In this document: positions 2,738 to 27,125 of the stretch, one piece after another | Layout of the letters: every line of letters begins with the position of its first letter | How positions within the stretch are numbered: position 1 is the stretch's first letter | Assembly (NCBI RefSeq): GCF_000969885.1 | Contig: NZ_CP009501.1 | Location: forward strand, 1,054,001 to 1,118,000 | Source: Methanosarcina thermophila TM-1 | GTDB lineage: Archaea; Halobacteriota; Methanosarcinia; Methanosarcinales; Methanosarcinaceae | Length of the DNA: 64,000 nt | Reading direction: 5' to 3' | Program-made: the position numbers and the translations under genes | Notes under the pieces: generated by a model | The model's input: the letters and a program-made list of their open reading frames with translations, nothing else | Told to the model about the DNA's origin: nothing | Database searches by the model: none

Positions 2738-3783
2738 AGCTTCCCTCCTTTGGGAAAAGCACAGCACCTAAGGATTTCTCGGATTGCTTTCCTGTATGGG
2801 TTGGTAATTATAGTAAATTTTTGATTTATTGATCCATGCATATAAGTAATTTCCATTTGTTTGTAGTGAGAGGATCAGAGGAAATTGGAGATATTCCTTT
2901 CCCTTTCCGGCACATCCAGGTATAAACAGGGGGTTTCGGATCCTTTCTACGGTAAAATAGAAAGTGCCTCCGTGGAAATAACATCAGAATATAAATAAAT
3001 TGCTTTTATTGCCTTATTCCCTCACCACAATGATAAAAGCTTTTTATTTTGAATAAAAAGCTTTTTATTCAAGAGATATTATTTCTCCTGAAATTCTTTT
3101 ATTTGTATTAAATTTTTGTATGTGCACTGATGTTCTGCACATTCCTTTATATTTTTTCCTATTTTTATTCATTCAACCTTAAAAATATAAATCATTTATA
3201 TCAGAATATCTTCCGATATCCACCTGATTTAATGTTAAATACCAGCTTTTACAGCTCAGTTTTCCTCTAGATATTTCAAGATATCTTTTAAAAATTAAGA
3301 TTATTTTTATAAATTACAGTATATTTTTTTGTATAGCTCAGGGCATTGAAAGGTAAATCTCCCTCGAGTTTAAGATCTTAGCTATATATCTAATTTTTTT
3401 ATTACTTCAAGCATATTTTACTAAAAACAGCAATACCTTTACCTTTCAGGTGAGGAACATTTCTCATTCCTCAGACAGGGTTTTGCTCATCTGTTCCAGA
3501 TTTGGCTTTCATCAGTGCAAGGTAATAATCAATAATTTTTAAGCGCCCTTACAGCGACCTTTCGGGTTAAATCTGATAAATTTGAGATCAGGAATATTTA
3601 TTCATAATTTTATAGTACTTCCTGGTAACAAAGCACTTTTTCTATACACCGCTCAATCTAACTATTTATATATGGGGATTCCCGCTTTCTTGATGAATCT
3701 TGAGTCCTGTCTTTGGGCAGCATAATCAGGTTCTATGAAGAAATACAGCAAAAAATATTAAAGAACAGCGCATTCTGAACTTG
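2738..3783. other. long AT-rich divergent intergenic region
   Basis: About 1.05 kb between the Era-like GTPase (minus) and shikimate kinase (plus) without a credible ORF. It must carry both promoters; TTTATATA at 3665-3672 is a plausible TATA box for the kinase gene. A perfect 20-bp palindrome lies at 3051-3070 (AATAAAAAGC/GCTTTTTATT type). No tRNA or other RNA gene was recognised. Confidence 0.5.
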
Positions 3784-4647
3784 ATGACATTTCAAGGGAA
3801 TGCCTGCGCATCAGGGGCAGGAACCATAATAAATGCCATAGCAACATGGAAGGGCGCTGCATTTGGAATTGACTTACTGACCTTTGCAGAAGTCGAACTT
3901 TCAGAAGATGAGAGAGGAATCTCAGGTTTTATCGAGGAAATGCCTGAAGGGGATACCCGTCTTATTGAGCAGTGTGTCGAAATGACCCTGGAGCGGTTCG
4001 GGCTTGAGATGGGAGGTACAGTAAAGACAAGAAGTGAGATCCCTCTGGCAGGCGGGCTCAAGAGCAGCAGTGCCGCAGCAAATGCCTCAGTCCTTGCAAC
4101 CCTTCGTGCAGTTGGGAAGACTTTACCGCCTCTTGAGATAGTAAAACTGGGGGTGGCGGCTGCAAAAAAAGTAGGGGTTACTATAACAGGCGCCTTTGAT
4201 GATGCGTGTGCTTCTTTTTTTGGGGGAATTGTGGTTACCGATAACCGTAAAATGGAACTTCTCAGGCGTGAGGAGTTTAATTCAAAAGTCCTGATATTTG
4301 CGCCTGCCAAGAAAGCTTTCAGTGCGGATACAGATGTAAAGCGCTCAAGACTTATAGCCCCGTACGTGGAAATTGCTTACGAACTTGCCCTAAAAGGTGA
4401 ATATGAACGAGCCATGACGCTCAATGGTTTCCTCTATTGCGGAACTCTTGGCTTTGGCACGGAACATATGCTTCGAGCACTTGAGCTCGGGGTAAAAGGA
4501 GTAAGCCTATCCGGAACAGGACCCTCATATGCGGCACTTGTCCGAGCTGAACAGGTAAAAGAACTGAGATCAGCCTGGGAAAGCTGTGGAGTAGAAGGTA
4601 GGGTTATAGAAACCTCTATAAATAACAGAGATGCAATGTCTTTATAA
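3784..4647 (+). CDS. aroK: archaeal shikimate kinase (GHMP family)
   Basis: A GHMP-superfamily kinase of 287 residues. It has the GHMP ATP-binding loop in the form PLAGGLKSSSAAANASVLATL, and a C-terminal glycine motif VSLSGTGPSYAAL. This is the archaeal shikimate kinase type, which phosphorylates shikimate at O3 and is unrelated to bacterial AroK. The chorismate mutase gene follows 14 nt downstream, which supports a role in aromatic amino acid synthesis over homoserine or mevalonate kinase. The ATG at 3784 directly follows an in-frame TTG at 3781; no strong ribosome-binding site is visible. Confidence 0.9.
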   Translation: MTFQGNACASGAGTIINAIATWKGAAFGIDLLTFAEVELSEDERGISGFIEEMPEGDTRLIEQCVEMTLERFGLEMGGTVKTRSEIPLAGGLKSSSAAANASVLATLRAVGKTLPPLEIVKLGVAAAKKVGVTITGAFDDACASFFGGIVVTDNRKMELLRREEFNSKVLIFAPAKKAFSADTDVKRSRLIAPYVEIAYELALKGEYERAMTLNGFLYCGTLGFGTEHMLRALELGVKGVSLSGTGPSYAALVRAEQVKELRSAWESCGVEGRVIETSINNRDAMSL

Positions 4648-4661
4648 AGCGAGGGGTTCAC

Positions 4662-4949
4662 TTGAGCGAACTTGAGGCTGTCCGCAAAGAAATTGAAGAA
4701 ATTGATAGGGAAATTCTTGCCCTTATTAATAAAAGAGTAAACTTGGCTGAGAAGGTACTTGAATCAAAAAGAATAAATGGAACTTCGATAAATGACCAAA
4801 GACAAAATGAGGTTGTAATAAACAGGGCTTTAAATGCTGCAACCGAGCTCAATCTTGATCTGGGGTCCATAAAGGCTATTTTTGAGATCCTTATCAAGAT
4901 GAGTATTGAACGCCAGAACGAGTTGAGTGGCAAGGGAAGTCTGCCCTGA
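4662..4949 (+). CDS. chorismate mutase, AroQ type
   Basis: A 95-residue all-helical AroQ-fold chorismate mutase that converts chorismate to prephenate. Typical elements are the N-terminal IEEIDREILALINKRVNLAEKV helix, which carries the substrate-binding arginine, the central K36-type region VLESKR, and the C-terminal IFEILIKMSIERQ helix. There is no fused prephenate dehydratase or dehydrogenase domain. The start is TTG preceded by GAGGGG. It lies between shikimate kinase and purE in one transcription unit. Confidence 0.9.
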   Translation: MSELEAVRKEIEEIDREILALINKRVNLAEKVLESKRINGTSINDQRQNEVVINRALNAATELNLDLGSIKAIFEILIKMSIERQNELSGKGSLP

Positions 4950-4967
4950 TGCTGAGGAGAAAGAAAA

Positions 4968-5369
4968 ATGGTTGATATCTCAATAATCATGGGTTCCGAA
5001 TCCGATAGGTCTGTCGCCAATCGTGCGGTAGCCGTGCTGGAAAAAAGTAAATACACATATGAAGTAATGGTTATTTCCGCTCACAGGAACCCTGACGAAC
5101 TTGACAGCTACATCTCAAGCACAGATGCAAAGGTCTTTATTACAATTGCAGGTTTATCAGCAGCCCTTCCAGGAGTCGTGGCTTCCAAAACAAAAAAACC
5201 TGTAATAGGAGTTCCTGTTAGTGCAAAACTTGGAGGGCTTGATGCCCTGCTTTCCATTGCCCAGATGCCTCCAGGTGTACCTGTCGGAAGTGTAGGAATA
5301 GATAACGGAGCAAATGGTGCACATCTTGCCCTGAGAATCCTAGACTTGATAGATACCGTAAAAACTTAA
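4968..5369 (+). CDS. purE: PurE, AIR carboxylase / N5-CAIR mutase
   Basis: A 133-residue PurE-fold protein that acts in purine synthesis on aminoimidazole ribonucleotide. Motifs seen: [13 protein letters not shown] at the N-terminus, [15 protein letters not shown] with the catalytic histidine, [16 protein letters not shown], and VIGVPVS. It is at the short end for the family. No purK is nearby, so whether it uses N5-CAIR (class I) or AIR plus CO2 (class II) is open; a CO2-rich methanogen could use either. GAGGAG precedes the ATG. It is the last gene of the run starting at 3784. Confidence 0.9.
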
Positions 5370-5978
5370 AAATTCTGTTAACTAAGAGTCTGTTAACTAA
5401 GAATCCTGTTAACTGAGAATCCGTTAAAAGCCTTCACTACAGGTTTAAAAACACATAGATTATTTCCTCTATGGATTTTGCCACGAGAATTTCTTTTTTT
5501 AAACTGTCTTATTATTTGCTTTTGATCTTTATTATCTATTCTGTTTTTATTATCCATTTTTATATCTGTATAGGAATTAAAAAAAAGATAATTAGAGAAC
5601 AAGCATTAGAAAACAAGTATTAGAAAACAAGCATTAGAAGACAGTATTAGTGGATTATATTGGGGATGGGCATCTGAGTATTGGGAATGTGGGGAGTTGG
5701 GGGTAAAAATGTTGGCTGAGGTTTAAAACAGAATAAGGTTTTTCTCAGATGCCTCACATACAAAAATATGTATCATATTATATAAAAATAGGGATATACT
5801 GCTATTTATATCAAATTTTTTGCAGTACCTTAATTTTTTAAAGAATCCTTTAAACGGAAATTTATGTTGACAGTTTAGATTAAGTCTCAAAAAGCCATTG
5901 GGAGAGGCTATAAAGATAATAAACTTAAAAACACATGCAAGTATCAGACATTAAGAATAATAAGAAAGAAAATTTTAC
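5370..5978. repeat. convergent intergenic region with two short tandem arrays
   Basis: About 610 nt between convergent purE and the Dph6-type gene. Immediately after purE (5374-5425) lie about four degenerate copies of a 15-nt unit (CTGTTAACTAAGAAT). At 5595-5650 lie about four copies of a 14-nt unit (ACAAGCATTAGAAA). TATA-like boxes occur near 5775-5788 and 5803 with no ORF after them on the plus strand, so an unannotated small RNA is possible but unsupported. Short ORFs here look accidental. Confidence 0.5.
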
Positions 5979-6650
5979 TCAATTTTTGTCAACAAGTTTT
6001 GCTTCGAGGATCTTTAGAGTGCCAGTGTCGCCTTGCCATTCAACCTCACTTTTCACAATCTCAATGCGTTTTTTGAAGAAGGGAGCATCAAGTACAACAG
6101 TCTCGTACTCTCCACCTTCACCTGCCATGTGAACCATGTACCTTTTGTTCAGGGCTTTCAGATGTTCAATAGAGTTTACGTTTATAGGGCGACCCAGCCA
6201 GGATTTATCAAGACCGTCAGCTGCAACCCTGACAATTCGAATATCAAGCACTTTAGACATTTCGGTGAGCAATTCCTCAGGGTCTCTGTGCCAGAGGGGG
6301 GCATAGACCTTAAGTCCCAGGGAGTCGCAGATCTTCTGTACTCTGCCTGCCTGGTACTGGGATTCAATCGCGCCTATGACTACACCATCTACATCCACTT
6401 TCTTGAGGGCAAGGGTCAAGTCATCAAGCTCGAGCTCCTTTATTCCACTTGATTCTTGCTGAATCAGCGGGATCTCAGAGGCGGCAGAGATTAATTCTAC
6501 CATGTGGAGGTTTATTGAGTGGTACATATAGGAATCGTCCCTTGCGGGAATTATATTTATCAGGTGGGTGACTTCATGCCCTTCCAGGAGGGCTTTATAT
6601 ATGGCAAAAATCGAGTCCTTGCCACCGGAAACCAGTGCTGCGAGTCTCAT
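5979..6650 (-). CDS. diphthine-ammonia ligase-like ATP pyrophosphatase (Dph6 family)
   Basis: A PP-loop protein of 223 residues. The motif MRLAALVSGGKDSIFAIYKAL is the ATP pyrophosphatase signature; VIGAIESQYQAGRV and the C-terminal GEGGEYETVVLDAPFF are hallmarks of the Dph6/COG2102 family. Dph6 carries out the last step of diphthamide formation on elongation factor 2, amidating diphthine with ATP and ammonium. The diphthine synthase gene lies 2.2 kb away on the same strand, which supports this. The ATG at 6650 is preferred over 6656 because the GGA ribosome-binding site is correctly spaced from it. Confidence 0.85.
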   Translation of the reverse strand: MRLAALVSGGKDSIFAIYKALLEGHEVTHLINIIPARDDSYMYHSINLHMVELISAASEIPLIQQESSGIKELELDDLTLALKKVDVDGVVIGAIESQYQAGRVQKICDSLGLKVYAPLWHRDPEELLTEMSKVLDIRIVRVAADGLDKSWLGRPINVNSIEHLKALNKRYMVHMAGEGGEYETVVLDAPFFKKRIEIVKSEVEWQGDTGTLKILEAKLVDKN

Positions 6651-18041: not shown

Positions 18042-18437
18042 TCAGCTACCGCCTGTGCGGGGAGTTACTCTGATTACTCCACCATTCTCGTCTGCAGTGC
18101 CCGTAACGTTTCTGGCTGGAGTCTCTTCTTCAGTTACATTCTCCATTTCAGTTTCAGCTGGGGTGCCTTCTTCAGCCGGAGTTACTGCTACAACTGGAGT
18201 TTCTGCTACAACTGGAGTCTCTGCCACTACTTCTTCAACCGGAGTTACAACTTCAACTTCAGTTACAGCCTCAACCTCAGTTACAACCTGCGCTGGAGTC
18301 CCTTCTTCAGCTGGAGTTACACCCTCCACTTCTTCAGCTGGAGTTCCTGCTTCCGGAGCCTCTCCCTCTTCACCAGCGCATCCAATTGCGAGGAAAACGC
18401 CTAACAATACTATCAACATGATAAGTGCTTTTCTCAT
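18042..18437 (-). CDS. low-complexity lipoprotein
   Basis: A 131-residue predicted lipoprotein: signal peptide MRKALIMLIVLLGVFLAIGC with a lipobox, then a Glu/Val/Pro/Thr repeat stalk (TEVEAVTEVEVVTPVEE, and PVVAETP twice), ending VIRVTPRTGG. No folded domain is visible. It is a close paralogue of the protein at 19138, which shares the leader, most of the stalk and the VIRVTP tail. The stalk plus thin C-terminus suggests a cell-surface tether or a glycosylated spacer. GGAGG lies upstream of the ATG. Confidence 0.8.
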   Translation of the reverse strand: MRKALIMLIVLLGVFLAIGCAGEEGEAPEAGTPAEEVEGVTPAEEGTPAQVVTEVEAVTEVEVVTPVEEVVAETPVVAETPVVAVTPAEEGTPAETEMENVTEEETPARNVTGTADENGGVIRVTPRTGGS

Positions 18438-19137: not shown

Positions 19138-19596
19138 TTATTCACCTTTGCTGGGAGTTACTCTGATTACTCTACCTCCAGTCTGATTTTCAGCGGCGGT
19201 CTCTTCCTCCTCAGCTATTTGCTCTTCTTCCTGTGCACCTCCTTCTGGTGTTACATCCTCCACTGCTTCAGCTGGAGTTACATCTTCTACTGCTTCAGCT
19301 GGAGTGCCTTCTTCAACTGTAGCTCCTTCTTCAGCCGGAGTTACTGCCACAACTGGAGTTTCTGCTACAACTGGAGTTTCTGCCACTACTTCTTCAACCG
19401 GAGTTACAACCTCAACTTCAGTTACAGCCTCAACCTCAGTTACAGCCTGTGCTGGAGTCCCTTCTTCAGCTGGAGTTACATCCTCCACTTCTTCAGCTGG
19501 AGTTCCTGCTTCCGGAGCCTCTCCCTCCTCACCAGCGCATCCAATTGCGAGGAAAACGCCTAACAATACTATCAACATGATAAGTGCTTTTCTCAT
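19138..19596 (-). CDS. low-complexity lipoprotein (paralogue)
   Basis: A 152-residue predicted lipoprotein with the same leader as the 18042 gene (LGVFLAIGCAGEEGEAPEAG). Its stalk is longer by repeats of the type EDVTPAEAV and an acidic QEEEQIAEEEE stretch, and it ends VIRVTPSKGE. The shared VIRVTP tail is the only non-repetitive conserved part and may be functional. There is no enzymatic domain. Recent tandem duplication with repeat-number change is the simplest origin. Confidence 0.8.
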   Translation of the reverse strand: MRKALIMLIVLLGVFLAIGCAGEEGEAPEAGTPAEEVEDVTPAEEGTPAQAVTEVEAVTEVEVVTPVEEVVAETPVVAETPVVAVTPAEEGATVEEGTPAEAVEDVTPAEAVEDVTPEGGAQEEEQIAEEEETAAENQTGGRVIRVTPSKGE

Positions 19597-19686: not shown

Positions 19687-19868
19687 AATTTCTGCTCAAA
19701 TCAAGAAATCCGGTTATTTAAGGAGATTTCTCTCTATCGGAGCTTCTATGCAGCATCATTCCGAATAAATTTAAACTGAAAGCTTTATTTTCTCGCCAAT
19801 TTCTTTAAGTTATAATATTTGGAATTCTAATATTGTAATGCTTTTAAATGACTTTTCGGGGGGAAGTC

Positions 19869-21233
19869 ATGAAGATCAAATCCATTAATCCTTATACAGA
19901 AGAGGTAAACTGGGTATATGACTCGTTTTCTTTCGCAGAGTGCGAGGCTAAAATTGGAAAATCCAGGGCTGCTTTTTCCGGATGGAGTTCATTGCCTGTG
20001 GAGGAAAGGGCAAAGCATTTCACACGGGTCTCCAGTGTCCTTCGGCAAAATACTGAGATCTATGCCGAAATTATTACTAAGGAGATGGGAAAACCTATCA
20101 GGCAGTCAAGGGGCGAGATTGAAAAATGCGCCTGGCTTTGCGATTATTACGCAGAAAATGCAGCAGAATTTCTGAAAGACGAGATTGTGGATACGGGAGC
20201 TGAGAAAAGTTATGTAACTTTTGAGCCACTCGGGGTAATTTTTGGGATAATGCCCTGGAATTTTCCATTCTGGCAGGTCTTCAGGTTTGCAGTGCCCGCA
20301 ATATGTGCAGGAAATGTATGCGTTATCAAACATGCATCAAATGTGCCAAGGTCGGCAATGGAGATTGAGAAAGTTTTTATTGAAGCCGGGTTTCCGGAAA
20401 ACGTTTTTAGTTCCCTGTTAATTGACGCGAAGACTGCAAGGGAAATTATTGAAAAAGAAATGGTAGATGGAGTTTCGCTTACCGGCAGCGTAGGTGCAGG
20501 CTCGGAGATAGGGGAACTTGCCGGAAAACTGATCAAGCCTGTTGTGCTGGAACTGGGAGGTTCAGATCCTTTTATAGTACTTGAGGATGCTGACATCGAG
20601 AGGGCTGCGCAGGTAGCTGTAGAATCTCGATTTCTTAATACCGGACAGAGCTGTATTGCTGCCAAGCGCTTTATTGTTATTGAAGACGTTGTGGTTGACT
20701 TCATCGAGGCATTTGAGCTTGAAATGCAGGAACTGAAGATCGGGAATCCTATGGATGAGGAGACCGATATAGGACCGATTGCGAAGAAAGAATTTCTCGA
20801 TAGTCTTGAGAAGGTTTTGAAAGACGCGAAAAAGAAAGGTGCAGAACCTCACATCTATGGAGAAGAGCAGAGTAAGGGTTTCTTCTTTAGACCGACCCTT
20901 ATCCCTGCAGCAAGTACAGATATGAAGGTCTGCAATGTCGAGGTTTTCGGGCCCATTGCCCCTGTTATCACGGCAAAGGACGAGGATGAAGCCGTAAAAA
21001 TTGCAAACTCAACAGAATTCGGGCTTGGAGCCGAGATCTGGTCAAGAGACCTTGAAAGAGCCCAGAGGCTGGCAAAAAGAATAAAATCCGGATTTGTAGC
21101 AATTAATGGAATGGTCAAATCCGACCCGAGGCTGCCTTTTGGTGGGGTAAAGAAGTCTGGAGTCGGGAGAGAACTTTCCCATTATGGGCTCAAAGAATTT
21201 GTGAATATAAAAACAGTTGTTGTCAACAGGTAA
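19869..21233 (+). CDS. succinate-semialdehyde-type aldehyde dehydrogenase
   Basis: An NAD(P)-dependent aldehyde dehydrogenase of 454 residues. Catalytic parts are the oxyanion asparagine in MPWNFPFWQ (N131), the general base in LELGGSDPF (E228) and the nucleophile in NTGQSCIAAKRF (C262). The sequence style fits succinate semialdehyde dehydrogenases of the Sad/YneI kind. It oxidises an aldehyde to an acid, here probably succinate semialdehyde to succinate. GGGGGGAAGTC before the ATG at 19869 decides the start over 19848. It begins a five-gene plus-strand cluster; a TPP decarboxylase-like gene follows. Confidence 0.85.
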   Translation: MKIKSINPYTEEVNWVYDSFSFAECEAKIGKSRAAFSGWSSLPVEERAKHFTRVSSVLRQNTEIYAEIITKEMGKPIRQSRGEIEKCAWLCDYYAENAAEFLKDEIVDTGAEKSYVTFEPLGVIFGIMPWNFPFWQVFRFAVPAICAGNVCVIKHASNVPRSAMEIEKVFIEAGFPENVFSSLLIDAKTAREIIEKEMVDGVSLTGSVGAGSEIGELAGKLIKPVVLELGGSDPFIVLEDADIERAAQVAVESRFLNTGQSCIAAKRFIVIEDVVVDFIEAFELEMQELKIGNPMDEETDIGPIAKKEFLDSLEKVLKDAKKKGAEPHIYGEEQSKGFFFRPTLIPAASTDMKVCNVEVFGPIAPVITAKDEDEAVKIANSTEFGLGAEIWSRDLERAQRLAKRIKSGFVAINGMVKSDPRLPFGGVKKSGVGRELSHYGLKEFVNIKTVVVNR

Positions 21234-21351
21234 AATATCTGAACTGCAAACTTAATTTAAGCTTAAATAGCTTAGTCAGAACTTAATAAGCAAACATGAG
21301 TTAGTTATACCCAGTTCGGATAAAAGCCAGATAACTTATTTGAGGTTTTTC

Positions 21352-22986
21352 ATGAAGGCTTCAGATCTTTTCGTTGCCCAGCTTAAGGAGGAAGGTGTAG
21401 AATATATCTTCGGGCTGCCAGGCGAAGAAAATCTTGACCTGCTTGAATCCCTTAGGACTTCCGGAATCAAACTTATAGTAACAAGGCATGAACAGGCTGC
21501 AGCATTTATGGCTGCAACATATGGGAGGCTGACAGGTAAACCAGGAGTTTGTTTTTCAACGCTTGGTCCAGGGGCTACCAATCTTGTCACAGGTGTTGCC
21601 CAGGCACAGCTTATAGGAGCCCCTCTTATTTCCATATCCGGTCAGAAGGCTCTGATCGATAACTGGCAAGCTCGCTTCCAGCTTGTAAATGTTGTCAGGA
21701 TGATGGAACCTCTCTGCAAAAACGCTGTGTCCATTACAGATCCCGGAATGATTCCCACAGTTATTCGCAACGCCTTCAAACATGCGGAAGCTGAAAGACC
21801 AGGAGCTGTACATATCGAGCTTCCTGAAGACGTGGCTGGAGCAGAAACTGAAGCTGTGGTGCAGAAGCGAAGCGAGATTAAAATCCCTCACCCTGATCCC
21901 GAAGCTGTAAAAAAAGCCGCAGCCATGATCTGTGAGGCTAAAAATCCGCTGATCATAGTTTCTTCAGGTGCAAACAGGAAAGCGGTCAGTGAAGAGCTCG
22001 AGGACTTTGTCCAGCGGACAGGCATCTACCTTGTGCATACCCAGATGGGAAAAGGTGTCGTTCCAGATGACTGCCCTCAGAGTCTCTTTGCCACCGGAAT
22101 TCATGCCCGAGACTATGTTAACTGCGGAATTGACATAGCTGACCTTATTATTACTATTGGGTACGATATAGTTGAATATCCTCCCTATCTGTGGAACAGG
22201 GCACTGGACAAGCAGATTATAAATATTGATTTTGTGGAGTCCGTACCTGACAGGTATTTTAACCCGACTGTAGAAATAATCGGGGATATCGCCTTTTCAA
22301 TCCGAGAACTTGCCGCATGTATACCGGGAAGACGAGAATTTCCGGTTTTTGAGCAAACTAAAAGTTTCATTGAAGAGAAGATAAACACTGTCGCCAGGAA
22401 GAGTTATCCTCCTCTCCCACAGGCGGTAGTCCAGAGTGTCAGGAAGGTGCTCGGGAGAAAAGACATAATCACGCTTGACAACGGGATTTATAAACTCTGG
22501 TTTGCTCGCCTTTATAAGACATATGCCCCAAATACCGTGCTCCTTGACAATGCGCTTGCAACTATGGGCGCAGGGCTTCCGTCAGGAATTGCCGCAAAAC
22601 TTCTTAATCCAGAGCGCCGGGTACTTGCAATCTGTGGGGATGGAGGGTTTATGATGAACTGCCAGGAACTTGAGACTGCAGTCCGATATGGAATCCCTGT
22701 TGTCGTCCTTATCCTTAATGACAATGGTTTTGGATTCATTAAATGGAAACAGAAAAAATTGAATTTTACGGATTATGGGCTAGATTATGGAAATCCTGAT
22801 TTCCCTAGCTTTGCTAGGAGCTTTGGAGCTGAGGGATTCAAGGTTAGGGAAGATGATGACCTTGAAGAGGTTCTCGAGCGAGCTTTTGCCCTTAATAAGG
22901 TGGCAGTTATCGAATGTCCTATTGATTATTCTGTAAACTATGAGACTTTCTCGATAGAACTGGGAAAGCTCACATGTAAGTTCTGA
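21352..22986 (+). CDS. acetolactate synthase-like TPP enzyme, candidate 2-oxoglutarate decarboxylase
   Basis: A thiamine-diphosphate enzyme of 544 residues with the three-domain pyruvate-oxidase layout. The N-terminal domain has GVEYIFGLPGEENLDLLE and the catalytic glutamate in TRHEQAA (E47); the C-terminal domain has the TPP/Mg motif GDGGFMMNCQELETA...LNDN. Annotation pipelines would say acetolactate synthase (AlsS type), but there is no regulatory subunit gene, and the neighbour is a semialdehyde dehydrogenase. In cyanobacteria a similar pair encodes 2-oxoglutarate decarboxylase plus succinate semialdehyde dehydrogenase. That substrate is my inference; acetolactate formation stays possible. 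GAGG precedes the ATG at 21352. Confidence 0.85.
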   Translation: MKASDLFVAQLKEEGVEYIFGLPGEENLDLLESLRTSGIKLIVTRHEQAAAFMAATYGRLTGKPGVCFSTLGPGATNLVTGVAQAQLIGAPLISISGQKALIDNWQARFQLVNVVRMMEPLCKNAVSITDPGMIPTVIRNAFKHAEAERPGAVHIELPEDVAGAETEAVVQKRSEIKIPHPDPEAVKKAAAMICEAKNPLIIVSSGANRKAVSEELEDFVQRTGIYLVHTQMGKGVVPDDCPQSLFATGIHARDYVNCGIDIADLIITIGYDIVEYPPYLWNRALDKQIINIDFVESVPDRYFNPTVEIIGDIAFSIRELAACIPGRREFPVFEQTKSFIEEKINTVARKSYPPLPQAVVQSVRKVLGRKDIITLDNGIYKLWFARLYKTYAPNTVLLDNALATMGAGLPSGIAAKLLNPERRVLAICGDGGFMMNCQELETAVRYGIPVVVLILNDNGFGFIKWKQKKLNFTDYGLDYGNPDFPSFARSFGAEGFKVREDDDLEEVLERAFALNKVAVIECPIDYSVNYETFSIELGKLTCKF

Positions 22987-23078
22987 TCTGAAAATAAAAA
23001 TTTTGGCTGCAAATAGGGTTTGCGGATTAAATCCATGCAAGCCCCAGATTTTAGAATTAAGCCCTGAGGGGGGGACTA

Positions 23079-24884
23079 ATGGAAGGCAAAGAAAATGAGG
23101 CTGGATATCCTGTACACTCACATGATGTAGTTATAGTCGGTGCCGGAATTACAGGGCTTAGGGCGGCGATTGAAACCGTAGATCAGGGGCTCAATACAGC
23201 CGTTATTTCTAAGGTGCATCCTCTCCGCTCCCACTCCGTAGCAGCCCAGGGAGGGATAAATGCAGCTTTAGGAAATGCCGTAGCCAGTGATTCCTGGGAA
23301 GCACATGCCTTTGATACAGTAAGGGGGTCGGATTATCTGGCTGACCAGGATGCCGTGGAAATCCTGTGTAAAAACGCACCTGAAGCAGTGATAGAGCTTG
23401 AGCATTTCGGAACTGTTTTTTCCAGGCTTCCTGACGGCAGGATTGCTCAGAGACCCTTTGGAGGAGGTATGTTCCCAAGAACCTGCTACGCTGCAGATCG
23501 GACAGGGCATAATATTCTGCATTCACTCTATGAACAACTTGTTGGCAGGCAGAGAAAAGAAAGTGAAAACTGTGAAAACCGGAAGCCGAGCAAACTTAGC
23601 TTTTACGAAGAATTTTTTGTAACCTCCCTTGTAAAGTCAGGAGAAAGCCTGTCTGAGAAAGGCTCGAAGAAAGAAGAAAGATGTGTAGGCTGTACTGCTC
23701 TGAATATCGCTGATGGGAACTTGCATGGTTTTACCTGCCATTCTCTTTTACTTGCAACCGGCGGTTTTGGGCGACTTTTTGACCGTTCCACAAACGCCCT
23801 GATTAATACAGGGGACGGTGCATCCCTGGCGCTTCGGGCAGGTGTGCCTTTAAAGGACATGGAATTCGTGCAGTTCCATCCAACTACCCTTTACGGCACA
23901 AACATCCTGATCACAGAAGGTGCAAGAGGAGAAGGTGGGTATCTCCTGAATAACAGGAATGAGCGTTTTATGGAGAGATATGCCCCTGCCTCCATGGAGC
24001 TTGCCCCAAGAGATATTGTTGCGAGAGCCATCCAGCAGGAAATTGAAGAAAGCAGGGGATTTGAGGGCGGTTACGTCCTCCTTGACCTGAGGCACCTGAA
24101 AGAGGAGAGAATTACAGAACGCCTGCCCGGGATAAGGCTCATCTGTCTGAACTTTGCAGGCATTGATCCTGTTAAATCTCCAATCCCGGTACAGCCAGGT
24201 CAGCATTATTCAATGGGAGGAATTTCGGTAGGCAACTCCCTGGAAACCGAACTCCCAGGGCTGTATGCGGCAGGAGAATGCGCCTGCATAAGCGTGCATG
24301 GGGCAAATCGGCTAGGAGGCAATTCTCTGCTTGAAACTGTGGTTTTCGGCAAGCTTGCAGGGCAGGAGATAGGAAAAGCTTTCCTGGCTTCTGGATATGA
24401 TAGAAAGGAGGCTAAAAAGGCTGTCCTTGAGAGCCTGCATAGGGAAAACGAGCGTATAAAAACCCTGCTCGCCAGAAAATCCGGAGTAAAAATGCACAGC
24501 CTCAGGGATGAACTGAGAAAAACAATGTTTGAATATTTCGGAGTTTTTCGGGAAGGGAAAAAGATGGAAAAAGGTTTGGAAAAACTCCTCCAGCTTAAAA
24601 ACCGCTTTAGCGATGTTTATATTAATAATAAATCCAGAGAATTTAATTATGCACTTATCTATGCTCTCGAACTTGAGGGATTGTTTGATATTGGAGAAGC
24701 CGTTGCAAGAGGAGCTATTGCCAGGAAGGAAAGCAGGGGTTCCCATTCAAGGGTTGATTACCCGCAGAGGGACGACAATAACTTCCTTCATCACACTCTG
24801 TACAGGCTAAAAAAAGGAAACCCTGTGCTTGAATCCCTACCTGTAAGGATCAGGAAGTTTCCTGTTAAGGAGCGTGTATATTGA
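23079..24884 (+). CDS. fumarate reductase / succinate dehydrogenase flavoprotein subunit
   Basis: A 601-residue FAD subunit of the succinate dehydrogenase/fumarate reductase family. Seen: dinucleotide fold [16 protein letters not shown], the FAD-linking histidine in [17 protein letters not shown] (H52), the substrate region [31 protein letters not shown], and [19 protein letters not shown]. It interconverts fumarate and succinate. Its stop codon overlaps the start of the iron-sulfur subunit, so the two are translated together. No membrane anchor genes follow. GGGGGGG lies upstream of the ATG. Confidence 0.92.
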
Positions 24885-25660
24885 TGAAATTGAAGGTATT
24901 TCGATTTGACAGGAAAGATGGGAAGTCCCGTTATGATACTTTTGAAATCGAGCCCTCTGCAGGAATGACAGTCCTTTCCGCGTTATTCAAAATCCAGGAA
25001 GAATTTGATGATTCCCTTGCTTTCCGCTACTCCTGCAGAGGCGCGGTTTGCGGAAGCTGTGCAATGCTGATTAATAAAATACCTTCGCTTGCCTGTCAGA
25101 CCCGGATAGAATCCCTGCTTAAAGGTGAAAGAAGAGTAAAGTTGCGCCCCTTTCCTGGAATGGAAGAGAATATTTCCTGGGATCCCGAAAATGAGGTACT
25201 TGTAGAGCCCCTTCCTTCTCTGCCGAAAATTAAAGACCTTATAGTGGATATGGATAAGTTTTTCGAATTTTACAGAGCAATCGAGCCGACTTTAAAACCG
25301 GCTCCAAAACCGCCCGAGAAGGAGCATCTCATGCAGCCTGATCCTGTAAAAGAGCTTGAGAAATACACAAACTGCATACTCTGTGCAGCCTGCGTGAGTG
25401 CCTGCCCTGTCTCGGGAAAGGAAAAAGATTTTCTAGGTCCTGCAGCTCTTGCAAAACTGTACAGGTTCTATATAGATCCCCGCGAAGCGAATAATGAATT
25501 GCGGCTCATGCTCGCCAACAGCAAATCAGGCTGGTGGGGTTGTGAATTCCATGCCAACTGCAGGGCTGTCTGCCCAAAAGGTGTTCCACCTATTGAGGGC
25601 ATCGGAAAAGCCAGGAGGCAAATCAAAAAATCTGGGATGGAACCTGTACAAAAATTCTGA
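24884..25660 (+). CDS. fumarate reductase / succinate dehydrogenase iron-sulfur subunit
   Basis: A 258-residue iron-sulfur protein. The N-terminal [2Fe-2S] site is CRGAVCGSC plus a fourth cysteine (C51, C56, C59, C71); the C-terminal ferredoxin-like domain has CILCAACVSACP and CEFHANCRAVCPKG for a [4Fe-4S] and a second cluster. It lacks the CCG (heterodisulfide-reductase-like) domains of the thiol:fumarate reductase subunit TfrB, so coenzyme M and B are not obvious donors. ATG at 24884 overlaps the flavoprotein stop (TGATG); AAGGAG precedes it. Confidence 0.92.
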   Translation: MKLKVFRFDRKDGKSRYDTFEIEPSAGMTVLSALFKIQEEFDDSLAFRYSCRGAVCGSCAMLINKIPSLACQTRIESLLKGERRVKLRPFPGMEENISWDPENEVLVEPLPSLPKIKDLIVDMDKFFEFYRAIEPTLKPAPKPPEKEHLMQPDPVKELEKYTNCILCAACVSACPVSGKEKDFLGPAALAKLYRFYIDPREANNELRLMLANSKSGWWGCEFHANCRAVCPKGVPPIEGIGKARRQIKKSGMEPVQKF

Positions 25661-25697
25661 GATTCTCAAAGGAGATCTTCTGGGGTGATCTATTACT

Positions 25698-27125
25698 TTG
25701 AATAGTCGGATTGAGAAAGATTCTCTTGGGGAAATGGAAGTTCCAGCTGATGCTTATTATGGCATTCAGACCCAGCGTGCTATCTGTAATTTCCCTGTAA
25801 GCGGGCACAGGGCGAGCCCGGAGTTTATCAGGGCATATATTCTTGTAAAAAAGGCAGCAGCACTTACCAATCTGGAGCTTGGAGTGCTTGACAGGGTGAG
25901 AGGAGATGCCATTGTAGCTGCAGCCGATGAAGTGCTTTCCGGGCTTTCAGGAAAGTATTCAGACCAGTTTCCTGTGGATATCTTCCAAGCAGGGGCAGGC
26001 ACTTCTTTTAATATGAACGTTAACGAGGTACTTGCAAACCGGGCTCTGGAAATCCTGGGCCGGAACCGGGGAGATTACAGCTTCCTGAGCCCTAACGACC
26101 ATGTAAATATGTCTCAATCAACCAATGATACCTTTCCGACCGCCTCAAGCATAGCTGTAATTTTTGCGGCTGACAGGCTTATTGATGTGCTTGCCTCTCT
26201 TGCGGAAGCTTTTCAGGCAAAAGCACTGGAATTCTCGAGAATCCCTAAATCTGGCCGGACACACCTTATGGACGCCTTGCCTGTGACTCTTGGCGATGAA
26301 TTCGGAGCTTATGCGGCTGCGCTGCTGAGGGCTTCAGGCAGGATAAAAGAGCGAAGAAATGATCTGCTTGAACTTCCTTTAGGAGGGACTGCAACCGGGA
26401 CAGGGGCTAATACCGATCCGAAATATCGCGAGCTTGTAATTTCGAAACTTTCCGAGCTCTGTAAATTACCTTTTCGAAAGGCAAGCAATAGTTTTGAAGC
26501 CCTGCAGAGCCGTTCCCAGCTTGCTGCTTTTTCAGGAGCCCTTCGGGAATTAGCACTTGAACTTATAAGAATAGCCAATGATTTGAGGCTCCTTAACGCC
26601 GGTCCAACTTCTGGAATTTCTGAAATTGAGCTTCCTGCTGTGCAGCCTGGCTCGTCCATGATGCCGGGAAAATACAACCCTGTAATGGCTGAATGCCTGG
26701 ATATGATAGGGTTCCAGATTGTAGGCAATGACACTGCAGTGGCTTTTGCAACTCAGGCTGGGCAGCTCGAGCTCAATGTTATGACCCCTGTTATAACCTC
26801 CAATATTCTTATGTCAGTTTCCCTTCTCACAAACTATCTGCCGATTTTTCAGACTCGCTGCGTGGAAGGGATAAAAGCGAATGAAGATAGGTGCAGAGCC
26901 TACCTTGAGTTGAATCCTACCCTTGTAACCTTCCTTGCCCCAAAGTTAGGGTATCTTAATGCTGCCGAGATTGCAAAAGAGGTGCTGGATAAGAGAATAC
27001 CTGTAAAGGAAGTCCTGGTAATGAGGGGGTTTTTGAGCAAAGAGGAAGCCGATGAACTACTTAAAATTGAAAACCTGCTACAATTCCCTGGCTCAGAAAA
27101 AAGTAAAACGAGCTTGAAAGAGTAA
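25698..27125 (+). CDS. aspartase/fumarase superfamily lyase, probably aspartate ammonia-lyase
   Basis: A 475-residue lyase with the superfamily signature GSSMMPGKYNP (318-328), SPNDHVNMSQSTND (131-144) and GRTHLMDALPVTLGDEF. The N-terminus IEKDSLGEMEVPADAYYGIQTQRAICNF, with YYG, resembles aspartases, while the PGK and IVGND parts are also fumarase-like. It releases fumarate from aspartate (or hydrates fumarate). The TTG start follows GGGGTGATC and lies 37 nt after the iron-sulfur subunit gene, so it is in the same operon and would feed or drain fumarate. The degenerate AT-rich repeats after it (27127-27215) are non-coding. Confidence 0.85.
   Translation: MNSRIEKDSLGEMEVPADAYYGIQTQRAICNFPVSGHRASPEFIRAYILVKKAAALTNLELGVLDRVRGDAIVAAADEVLSGLSGKYSDQFPVDIFQAGAGTSFNMNVNEVLANRALEILGRNRGDYSFLSPNDHVNMSQSTNDTFPTASSIAVIFAADRLIDVLASLAEAFQAKALEFSRIPKSGRTHLMDALPVTLGDEFGAYAAALLRASGRIKERRNDLLELPLGGTATGTGANTDPKYRELVISKLSELCKLPFRKASNSFEALQSRSQLAAFSGALRELALELIRIANDLRLLNAGPTSGISEIELPAVQPGSSMMPGKYNPVMAECLDMIGFQIVGNDTAVAFATQAGQLELNVMTPVITSNILMSVSLLTNYLPIFQTRCVEGIKANEDRCRAYLELNPTLVTFLAPKLGYLNAAEIAKEVLDKRIPVKEVLVMRGFLSKEEADELLKIENLLQFPGSEKSKTSLKE

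Follow-up and report, generated by a model that had tools for sequence, protein, structure and literature searches.

A complex II core accompanied by a lyase, with no adjoining membrane anchor, in Methanosarcina thermophila TM-1 and its family

The genome of Methanosarcina thermophila TM-1 is a single contig of 3,127,379 bases, and the window, the whole stretch of DNA analysed here, covers 64,000 nucleotides of it (positions 1,054,001-1,118,000). SdhA and SdhB are encoded by the third and fourth genes of a five-gene run on the + strand (19848..27125), after which lies a reverse-strand eIF1A-like gene. The run opens with a succinic-semialdehyde dehydrogenase (SSADH)-like aldehyde dehydrogenase of 461 aa (19848..21233; PF00171, 462 bits) and a thiamine-diphosphate enzyme of 548 aa (21340..22986; NF006187/PRK08322, 799 bits, cut-off 509), continues with the 601-aa SdhA/FrdA flavoprotein (23079..24884; TIGR01812, 742 bits, cut-off 567) and the SdhB/FrdB iron-sulfur protein, 259 aa when counted from a TTG start (24881..25660; TIGR00384, 213 bits, cut-off 88; PF13085, 105.6 bits), and ends with an aspartase-like lyase of the aspartase/class II fumarase superfamily (475 aa, 25698..27125; PRK12273, 615 bits, cut-off 510), all on the + strand. 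The original prediction placed the pair at 23079-25660, where both ORFs indeed lie (SdhA 23079-24884, SdhB 24881-25660); it identified the gene pair correctly but overlooked the longer run that begins at 19848. The overlap that it described between the two genes is present as well, measuring 4 nt with TTG 24881 as the SdhB start and 1 nt (TGATG) with ATG 24884. The latter start, giving 258 aa, is judged the more likely because AAGGAG lies just upstream. All five genes of the run are under purifying selection, with dN/dS of 0.10-0.18 against genome G080, and therefore the ORFs are not due to chance. Directly upstream of the run, on the - strand, are two near-duplicate lipoprotein-like ORFs (18042-18437 and 19138-19596) with a common signal-like start and Thr/Pro/Glu/Val-rich repeats. 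The locus was also scanned for sigma-70 promoters and terminators, a scan that carries no information for an archaeon.

The best solved relatives of the SdhAB pair are E. coli, mitochondrial or bacterial succinate dehydrogenases. SdhA keeps the covalent-FAD histidine, which aligns with His45 of E. coli SdhA and is likewise present in 43/43 archaeal rows; this histidine is usually associated with succinate oxidation. Alignment of SdhB to its E. coli counterpart shows the cysteine motifs for the 2Fe-2S, 4Fe-4S and 3Fe-4S clusters to be intact, and the positions equivalent to E. coli Trp164 and His207, which we take to be residues of the ubiquinone site, to be occupied by other residues.

A membrane anchor is missing from the neighbourhood of this core. 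The intergenic gaps within the run, 37 to 106 nt, are too small to accommodate an overlooked anchor gene, and on its own strand the SdhA-SdhB-lyase stretch is free of membrane ORFs of at least 35 aa out to a distance of 700 nt, bearing out the earlier claim that no anchor genes follow. Similarly, none of the 39 Methanosarcinaceae loci has a conserved membrane ORF near SdhAB. Genome-wide, where the anchor search consisted of the PF01127 (Sdh_cyt) profile only, TM-1 has no match and 0/111 family genomes score above the cut-off, compared with 7/14 control genomes; one weak match under the cut-off, interrupted by two stops, occurs in G005. The SdhB-type domain PF13085 is present in a single copy in the genome, and a second SdhAB copy with an anchor or a CCG subunit was sought with such profiles and did not turn up.

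SdhB matches were found in 79/237 genomes in a class-wide scan, and most of the SdhB loci examined from the sister families f3 and f5 carry what the Methanosarcinaceae loci lack. In six of nine SdhB-bearing loci retrieved from f3 and f5 (L230-L235) a short membrane ORF lies directly behind SdhB, with a length of 104-120 aa in the four that were read; the one in L232 matches PF01127 at 44.7 bits (cut-off 25.8). Another sister-family contig, L229, ends about 200 nt past SdhB, and the more distant SdhB copies of L238 and L239 have no membrane ORF behind them. In contrast, an anchor of the sister type follows SdhB at 0/39 loci of Methanosarcinaceae. The SdhA tree unites the window clade with one f5 sequence and with a clade of other genera that includes two f3 sequences (support 97/97). 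The TfrA-like and the remaining f5 rows fall outside this group, and long branches leave the deep root unsure. The SdhAB of L230-L235 belongs to this same SdhA clade, and f3 also shares the lyase-SdhA-SdhB order. From this distribution the anchor was probably lost in Methanosarcinaceae; a possible alternative is that it was gained in f3 and f5. Beside the SdhAB copy of L239 (f5) lies a 928-aa ORF (3504-6290, - strand) resembling, on visual inspection, the alpha subunit of nitrate reductase, which suggests that f5 is a family of nitrate-reducing methanotrophs.

The anchored relatives also raise the prospect that TM-1 encodes an unrecognised anchor elsewhere in its genome and that the enzyme is an ordinary, methanophenazine-linked membrane complex II. 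At the third cluster, anchored f3 and most anchorless genera, those with the lyase-SdhA-SdhB order, share an almost identical SdhB loop, and anchors are described as diverging fast in a complex II review (PMC10238741). We nevertheless consider such an anchor unlikely, given the lack of any PF01127 match over the cut-off in the family and of any conserved membrane ORF near SdhAB, and the loop of the Methanosarcina-type SdhB is altered to E-F-[HN]-A-N in 9/9 cases.

A CCG subunit is missing as well. PF02754 finds no CCG domain in the SdhB protein and the TfrB model (PRK06259, 488 positions) gives 144 bits against a cut-off of 385, as expected from the original prediction that SdhB lacks CCG domains. 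The enzyme resembles the TfrAB of methanogens in that each is an anchorless enzyme of anaerobic archaea with an SdhA-like and an SdhB-like subunit, and differs in that TfrB carries CCG domains and the 259-aa window SdhB does not. The proposed genome-wide search for unlinked subunits, which returned no PF01127 match, found ten CCG domains on five ORFs, none of them near SdhAB. By NCBIfam model and position, two of these ORFs are HdrB proteins, one behind HdrC and one behind HdrA and HdrC; a third is HdrD-like and is preceded by a membrane ORF resembling HdrE, and a fourth adjoins a GlcD-like gene. The fifth, of 382 aa, is without a clear partner gene (L161:6120-7268; G000:C1:2522619-2523767) and scores 147 bits with LdhH and 132 bits with TfrB, both far under the cut-offs. 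No SdhE-like CCG subunit, the mark of class E complex II, lies beside SdhAB, the best score with the SdhE model (149 of 500 bits) being that of an HdrB.

Could SdhAB nonetheless act as a thiol:fumarate reductase by borrowing a CCG half in trans from the HdrD-like or another CCG protein? The HdrD-like protein (L162:5690-6952) and a second CCG protein (L160:6307-7476) do match the C-terminal part of TfrB, at 239 and 256 bits; both remain under the TfrB cut-off of 385, however, and each has its own gene neighbours. In addition, f3 genomes possess, apart from SdhAB, an SdhA-like gene with a CCG-bearing TfrB-like gene of 541-546 aa behind it (373 bits against the cut-off of 385 in the one protein scanned), and these flavoproteins fall outside the window SdhA clade. 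The window enzyme is therefore not simply TfrAB minus its CCG half, and we regard supply in trans as very unlikely.

The lyase accompanies SdhAB almost without exception. Real SdhB is present in 39/111 family genomes (41 at E<=0.001, from which G002 and G028 were dropped as weak fragments) and the aspartase/fumarase-type lyase in 44/111, with 38 of the 39 SdhB genomes having it as opposed to 6/72 others (p about 3e-22, kinship between genomes ignored). The one exception, G017, has a truncated SdhB adjoining a lyase fragment. The original prediction named the lyase correctly as the next gene but missed this near-perfect co-occurrence. In 28/39 loci the order is lyase-SdhA-SdhB, in 9/39, all in Methanosarcina (the window included) and genus g5, it is SSADH-thiamine enzyme-SdhA-SdhB-lyase, and 2/39 are cut or broken. 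Neighbours of the lyase-SdhA-SdhB set in other genera were considered as electron carriers and rejected, since none of the nine proteins scanned is common across genera; they include a glutamate synthase with rubredoxin, a topoisomerase, a beta-CASP nuclease, a DUF2117 protein, histidine kinases and a P-type ATPase.

By its scores the lyase is nearer aspartases than fumarases. Among solved structures it matches the Bacillus aspartase at 469 bits and the best fumarase at 417, and E. coli AspA at 433.5 bits as against about 370 for E. coli FumC. Its QSTND motif, in which the Thr is presumably an aspartase-type mark, is found in 12/12 lyases of its type and is QSSND in 30/30 of the other type. 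The RTHLMDA and GGTA motifs are not aspartase-like, and the scores lie under the cut-offs of both TIGR00839 and TIGR00979. A role as sole fumarase is ruled out, since a class I fumarase is present in 105/111 family genomes, TM-1 among them. Seven genomes of genus g7 (L122, L123, L133, L134, L143, L144 and L153) share an in-frame TAG in the class II lyase gene next to SdhAB, always at one codon position (about 219, before ELNMGGTAVGTG), where two others of g7 have Trp or Gln; pyrrolysine read-through is probable. An amber codon has been reported in the citrate synthase of M. mahii (PMC3017947).

The thiamine enzyme (E<1e-80) occurs in 74/111 genomes, 27/39 with SdhB and 47/72 without (p 0.83, kinship ignored), which rules it out as a fixed partner of SdhAB over the 111 genomes. 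Eight loci were retrieved that hold a thiamine enzyme of a second kind, and in six of them it again has an SSADH-like neighbour, away from SdhAB; in those six the thiamine enzyme shows 43-46% identity and the SSADH-like protein 48-52%. Within Methanosarcina (g1), SdhB is found in 5/30 genomes and the thiamine enzyme in 26/30, two of them with internal stops. Gene remnants around an intact thiamine enzyme in G084, G092 and G094 (L220, L221 and L228) have the look of repeated decay. G092 has kept the SSADH, thiamine enzyme and lyase genes, which enclose broken pieces of SdhA and SdhB, G084 has a broken SSADH with SdhA and SdhB remnants, G094 has lyase fragments, and in G081 and G093 the lyase lies directly behind the thiamine enzyme. 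The recurrence of remnants and partial runs among Methanosarcina genomes makes it probable that the five-gene run dates far back in this genus, with SdhAB as its most frequently lost part. As the series G092, G084, G081 and G093 illustrates, SdhAB is dispensable where SSADH and the thiamine enzyme are retained; G075 likewise has SSADH and the thiamine enzyme and no SdhB match.

The best solved relatives of the SSADH-like protein are 3vz1-3vz3 and 4it9/4ita/4itb (439-445 bits), SSADHs that we take to come from the cyanobacterium Synechococcus PCC 7002, followed by E. coli Sad (381) and GabD (286); the protein falls under the NCBIfam SSADH cut-offs (PRK09406, 515 of 730 bits). The thiamine enzyme is named acetolactate synthase by the model PRK08322, for which 2/14 control genomes are above the cut-off. 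Because of these SSADH relatives, and because the TM-1 genome has a citrate synthase and lacks SucC (23 bits against a cut-off of 376, with none above it in the 111 family genomes either), the enzyme is probably a 2-oxoglutarate decarboxylase. It is possibly a catabolic acetolactate synthase; a biosynthetic one is unlikely, as a 587-aa large subunit followed by IlvN-/IlvC-like ORFs lies at G000:C1:2865568. Among 40 of 345 plasmid records listed, no cyanobacterial 2-OGDC was seen for comparison. Outside the family, an SSADH-like gene adjoins the thiamine enzyme in L016, L017, L019, L020, L021, L023 and L024, seven of the ten loci L015-L024, whose two proteins are 55-59% and 56-69% identical to those of the window; L015, L018 and L022 are without a full SSADH match. 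These ten loci come from Nitrospirae, Syntrophaceae, Planctomycetota, Nanoarchaeota and Woesearchaeota, plus Methanosarcina (L018, L022). Judged from such sequence identities, the pair travels across phyla.

Taken together, the intact core under purifying selection, the lack of a recognisable anchor or CCG subunit, the near-obligate company of the lyase and the SdhC-like anchor of sister families lead us to favour, with evenly balanced confidence, loss of the anchor from a two-subunit complex II core, which would now act as a soluble or peripherally bound succinate/fumarate oxidoreductase. The lyase would release fumarate, derived from aspartate in the Methanosarcina type and perhaps from malate in other genera, and SdhAB would reduce that fumarate to succinate. 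In Methanosarcina and the related genus, this unit would be joined with SSADH and the probable 2-oxoglutarate decarboxylase such that both arms end in succinate, the oxidative arm yielding NAD(P)H and the reductive arm using electrons; carbon from glutamate and aspartate would be disposed of in a balanced way. Against this reading stand the covalent-FAD histidine of SdhA and the presence of the class I fumarase, which leaves the need for a second fumarate lyase unexplained.

For the direction of the reaction, redox potentials were compared. Methanophenazine lies at about -165 mV. The fumarate/succinate couple is at +33 mV, compared with -140 mV for CoM-S-S-CoB, -360 mV for F420 and -420 mV for ferredoxin (Buckel and Thauer, PMC5861303). 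Because each of these carriers is more negative than fumarate/succinate, fumarate reduction is favoured, with moderate confidence. An annotated succinate dehydrogenase has elsewhere proved to be a fumarate reductase (Juhnke et al., PMC2680327). The residue at AQGG/AEGG, Gln in E. coli SdhA and Glu in E. coli FrdA, is ruled out as a guide to direction: it is Gln in 43/43 archaeal rows, the window among them, and also in 4/4 f3 TfrA-like proteins, these being the rows with readable N-termini. The name fumarate reductase in the original prediction implies a direction that is an inference, and the Gln decides nothing.

The opposite direction would make the run an oxidative branch, in which 2-oxoglutarate is decarboxylated to succinic semialdehyde, which is oxidized to succinate, SdhAB oxidizes succinate to fumarate and the lyase yields aspartate or malate; with citrate synthase, a TCA cycle of the cyanobacterial type would be closed. 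The gene order matches this path in 9/39 loci, the SSADH is nearest what is presumably the cyanobacterial type, citrate synthase is present with SucC under its cut-off in TM-1 and all 111 genomes, and the FAD histidine of SdhA is retained. Succinate oxidation would, however, run uphill with each carrier, by about +33 kJ/mol with CoM-S-S-CoB (standard state, our own arithmetic), the co-occurrence of SdhB with the thiamine enzyme does not exceed chance, and SdhAB has been lost where SSADH and the thiamine enzyme remain. We therefore hold an oxidative branch to be decidedly unlikely. Its fullest form, with the run as the lower half of an oxidative TCA cycle closed by a soluble succinate dehydrogenase without an anchor, working with an electron acceptor new to complex II, is highly improbable.

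For the preferred anchorless fumarate reductase, the candidates for the electron partner can be ranked by judgement. A docking protein at the methanophenazine/heterodisulfide level and a ferredoxin or flavodoxin share first place, each as a tentative proposal; CoM/CoB thiols acting via a CCG protein in trans appear unlikely, and F420H2 is a very doubtful partner. The original prediction did not settle on one partner, which holds as far as the genome-wide profiles reach, and overlooked the sister-family relatives with an SdhC-like anchor.

Parts of this arrangement have precedents. A 'fumarate reductase' beside a fumarase in M. mahii has been in print since 2010 (PMC3017947); there, in the same family, the gene number of the fumarase (Mmah_0724) adjoins those of the fumarate reductase (Mmah_0725/0726), as in the lyase-SdhA-SdhB loci, and no canonical succinyl-CoA synthetase was found. 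The M. mahii cluster differs in having no SSADH or thiamine enzyme and a lyase of the QSSND type, and the section of that paper available to us does not mention the absence of an anchor. Fully soluble complex II homologues, and examples with SdhA only, appear in the accessible part of the complex II review (PMC10238741). The cyanobacterial 2-OGDC/SSADH bypass is similar in that an SSADH is teamed with an enzyme bearing the annotation 'acetolactate synthase', SucC being absent from the genome; in contrast, a run in which SdhAB and a lyase join such a pair goes unmentioned in the portions available of accounts of the bypass (Zhang and Bryant 2011, known through PMC12214013, PMC9765476 and PMC4224347). 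Related 2-OGDC/SSADH genes in 'some methanogens' are noted in the accessible text of the Bryant memorial (PMC12214013). No paper on the five-gene run or the loss of the anchor was found, in a body of literature short on subscription journals. On the sources available in part, then, the run and the anchor loss appear new, and the fumarase-fumarate reductase pair of 2010 and the 2-OGDC/SSADH-like methanogen genes of 2011 were already known.

Complex II is classed by its membrane half, and a family in which the core is under selection and anchorless would offer a natural experiment on a core cut off from its membrane quinone-like carrier. The five-gene run may also join two loose ends, namely the genes of the cyanobacterial 2-oxoglutarate bypass and the formation of succinate in methanogens that have no recognisable succinyl-CoA synthetase.
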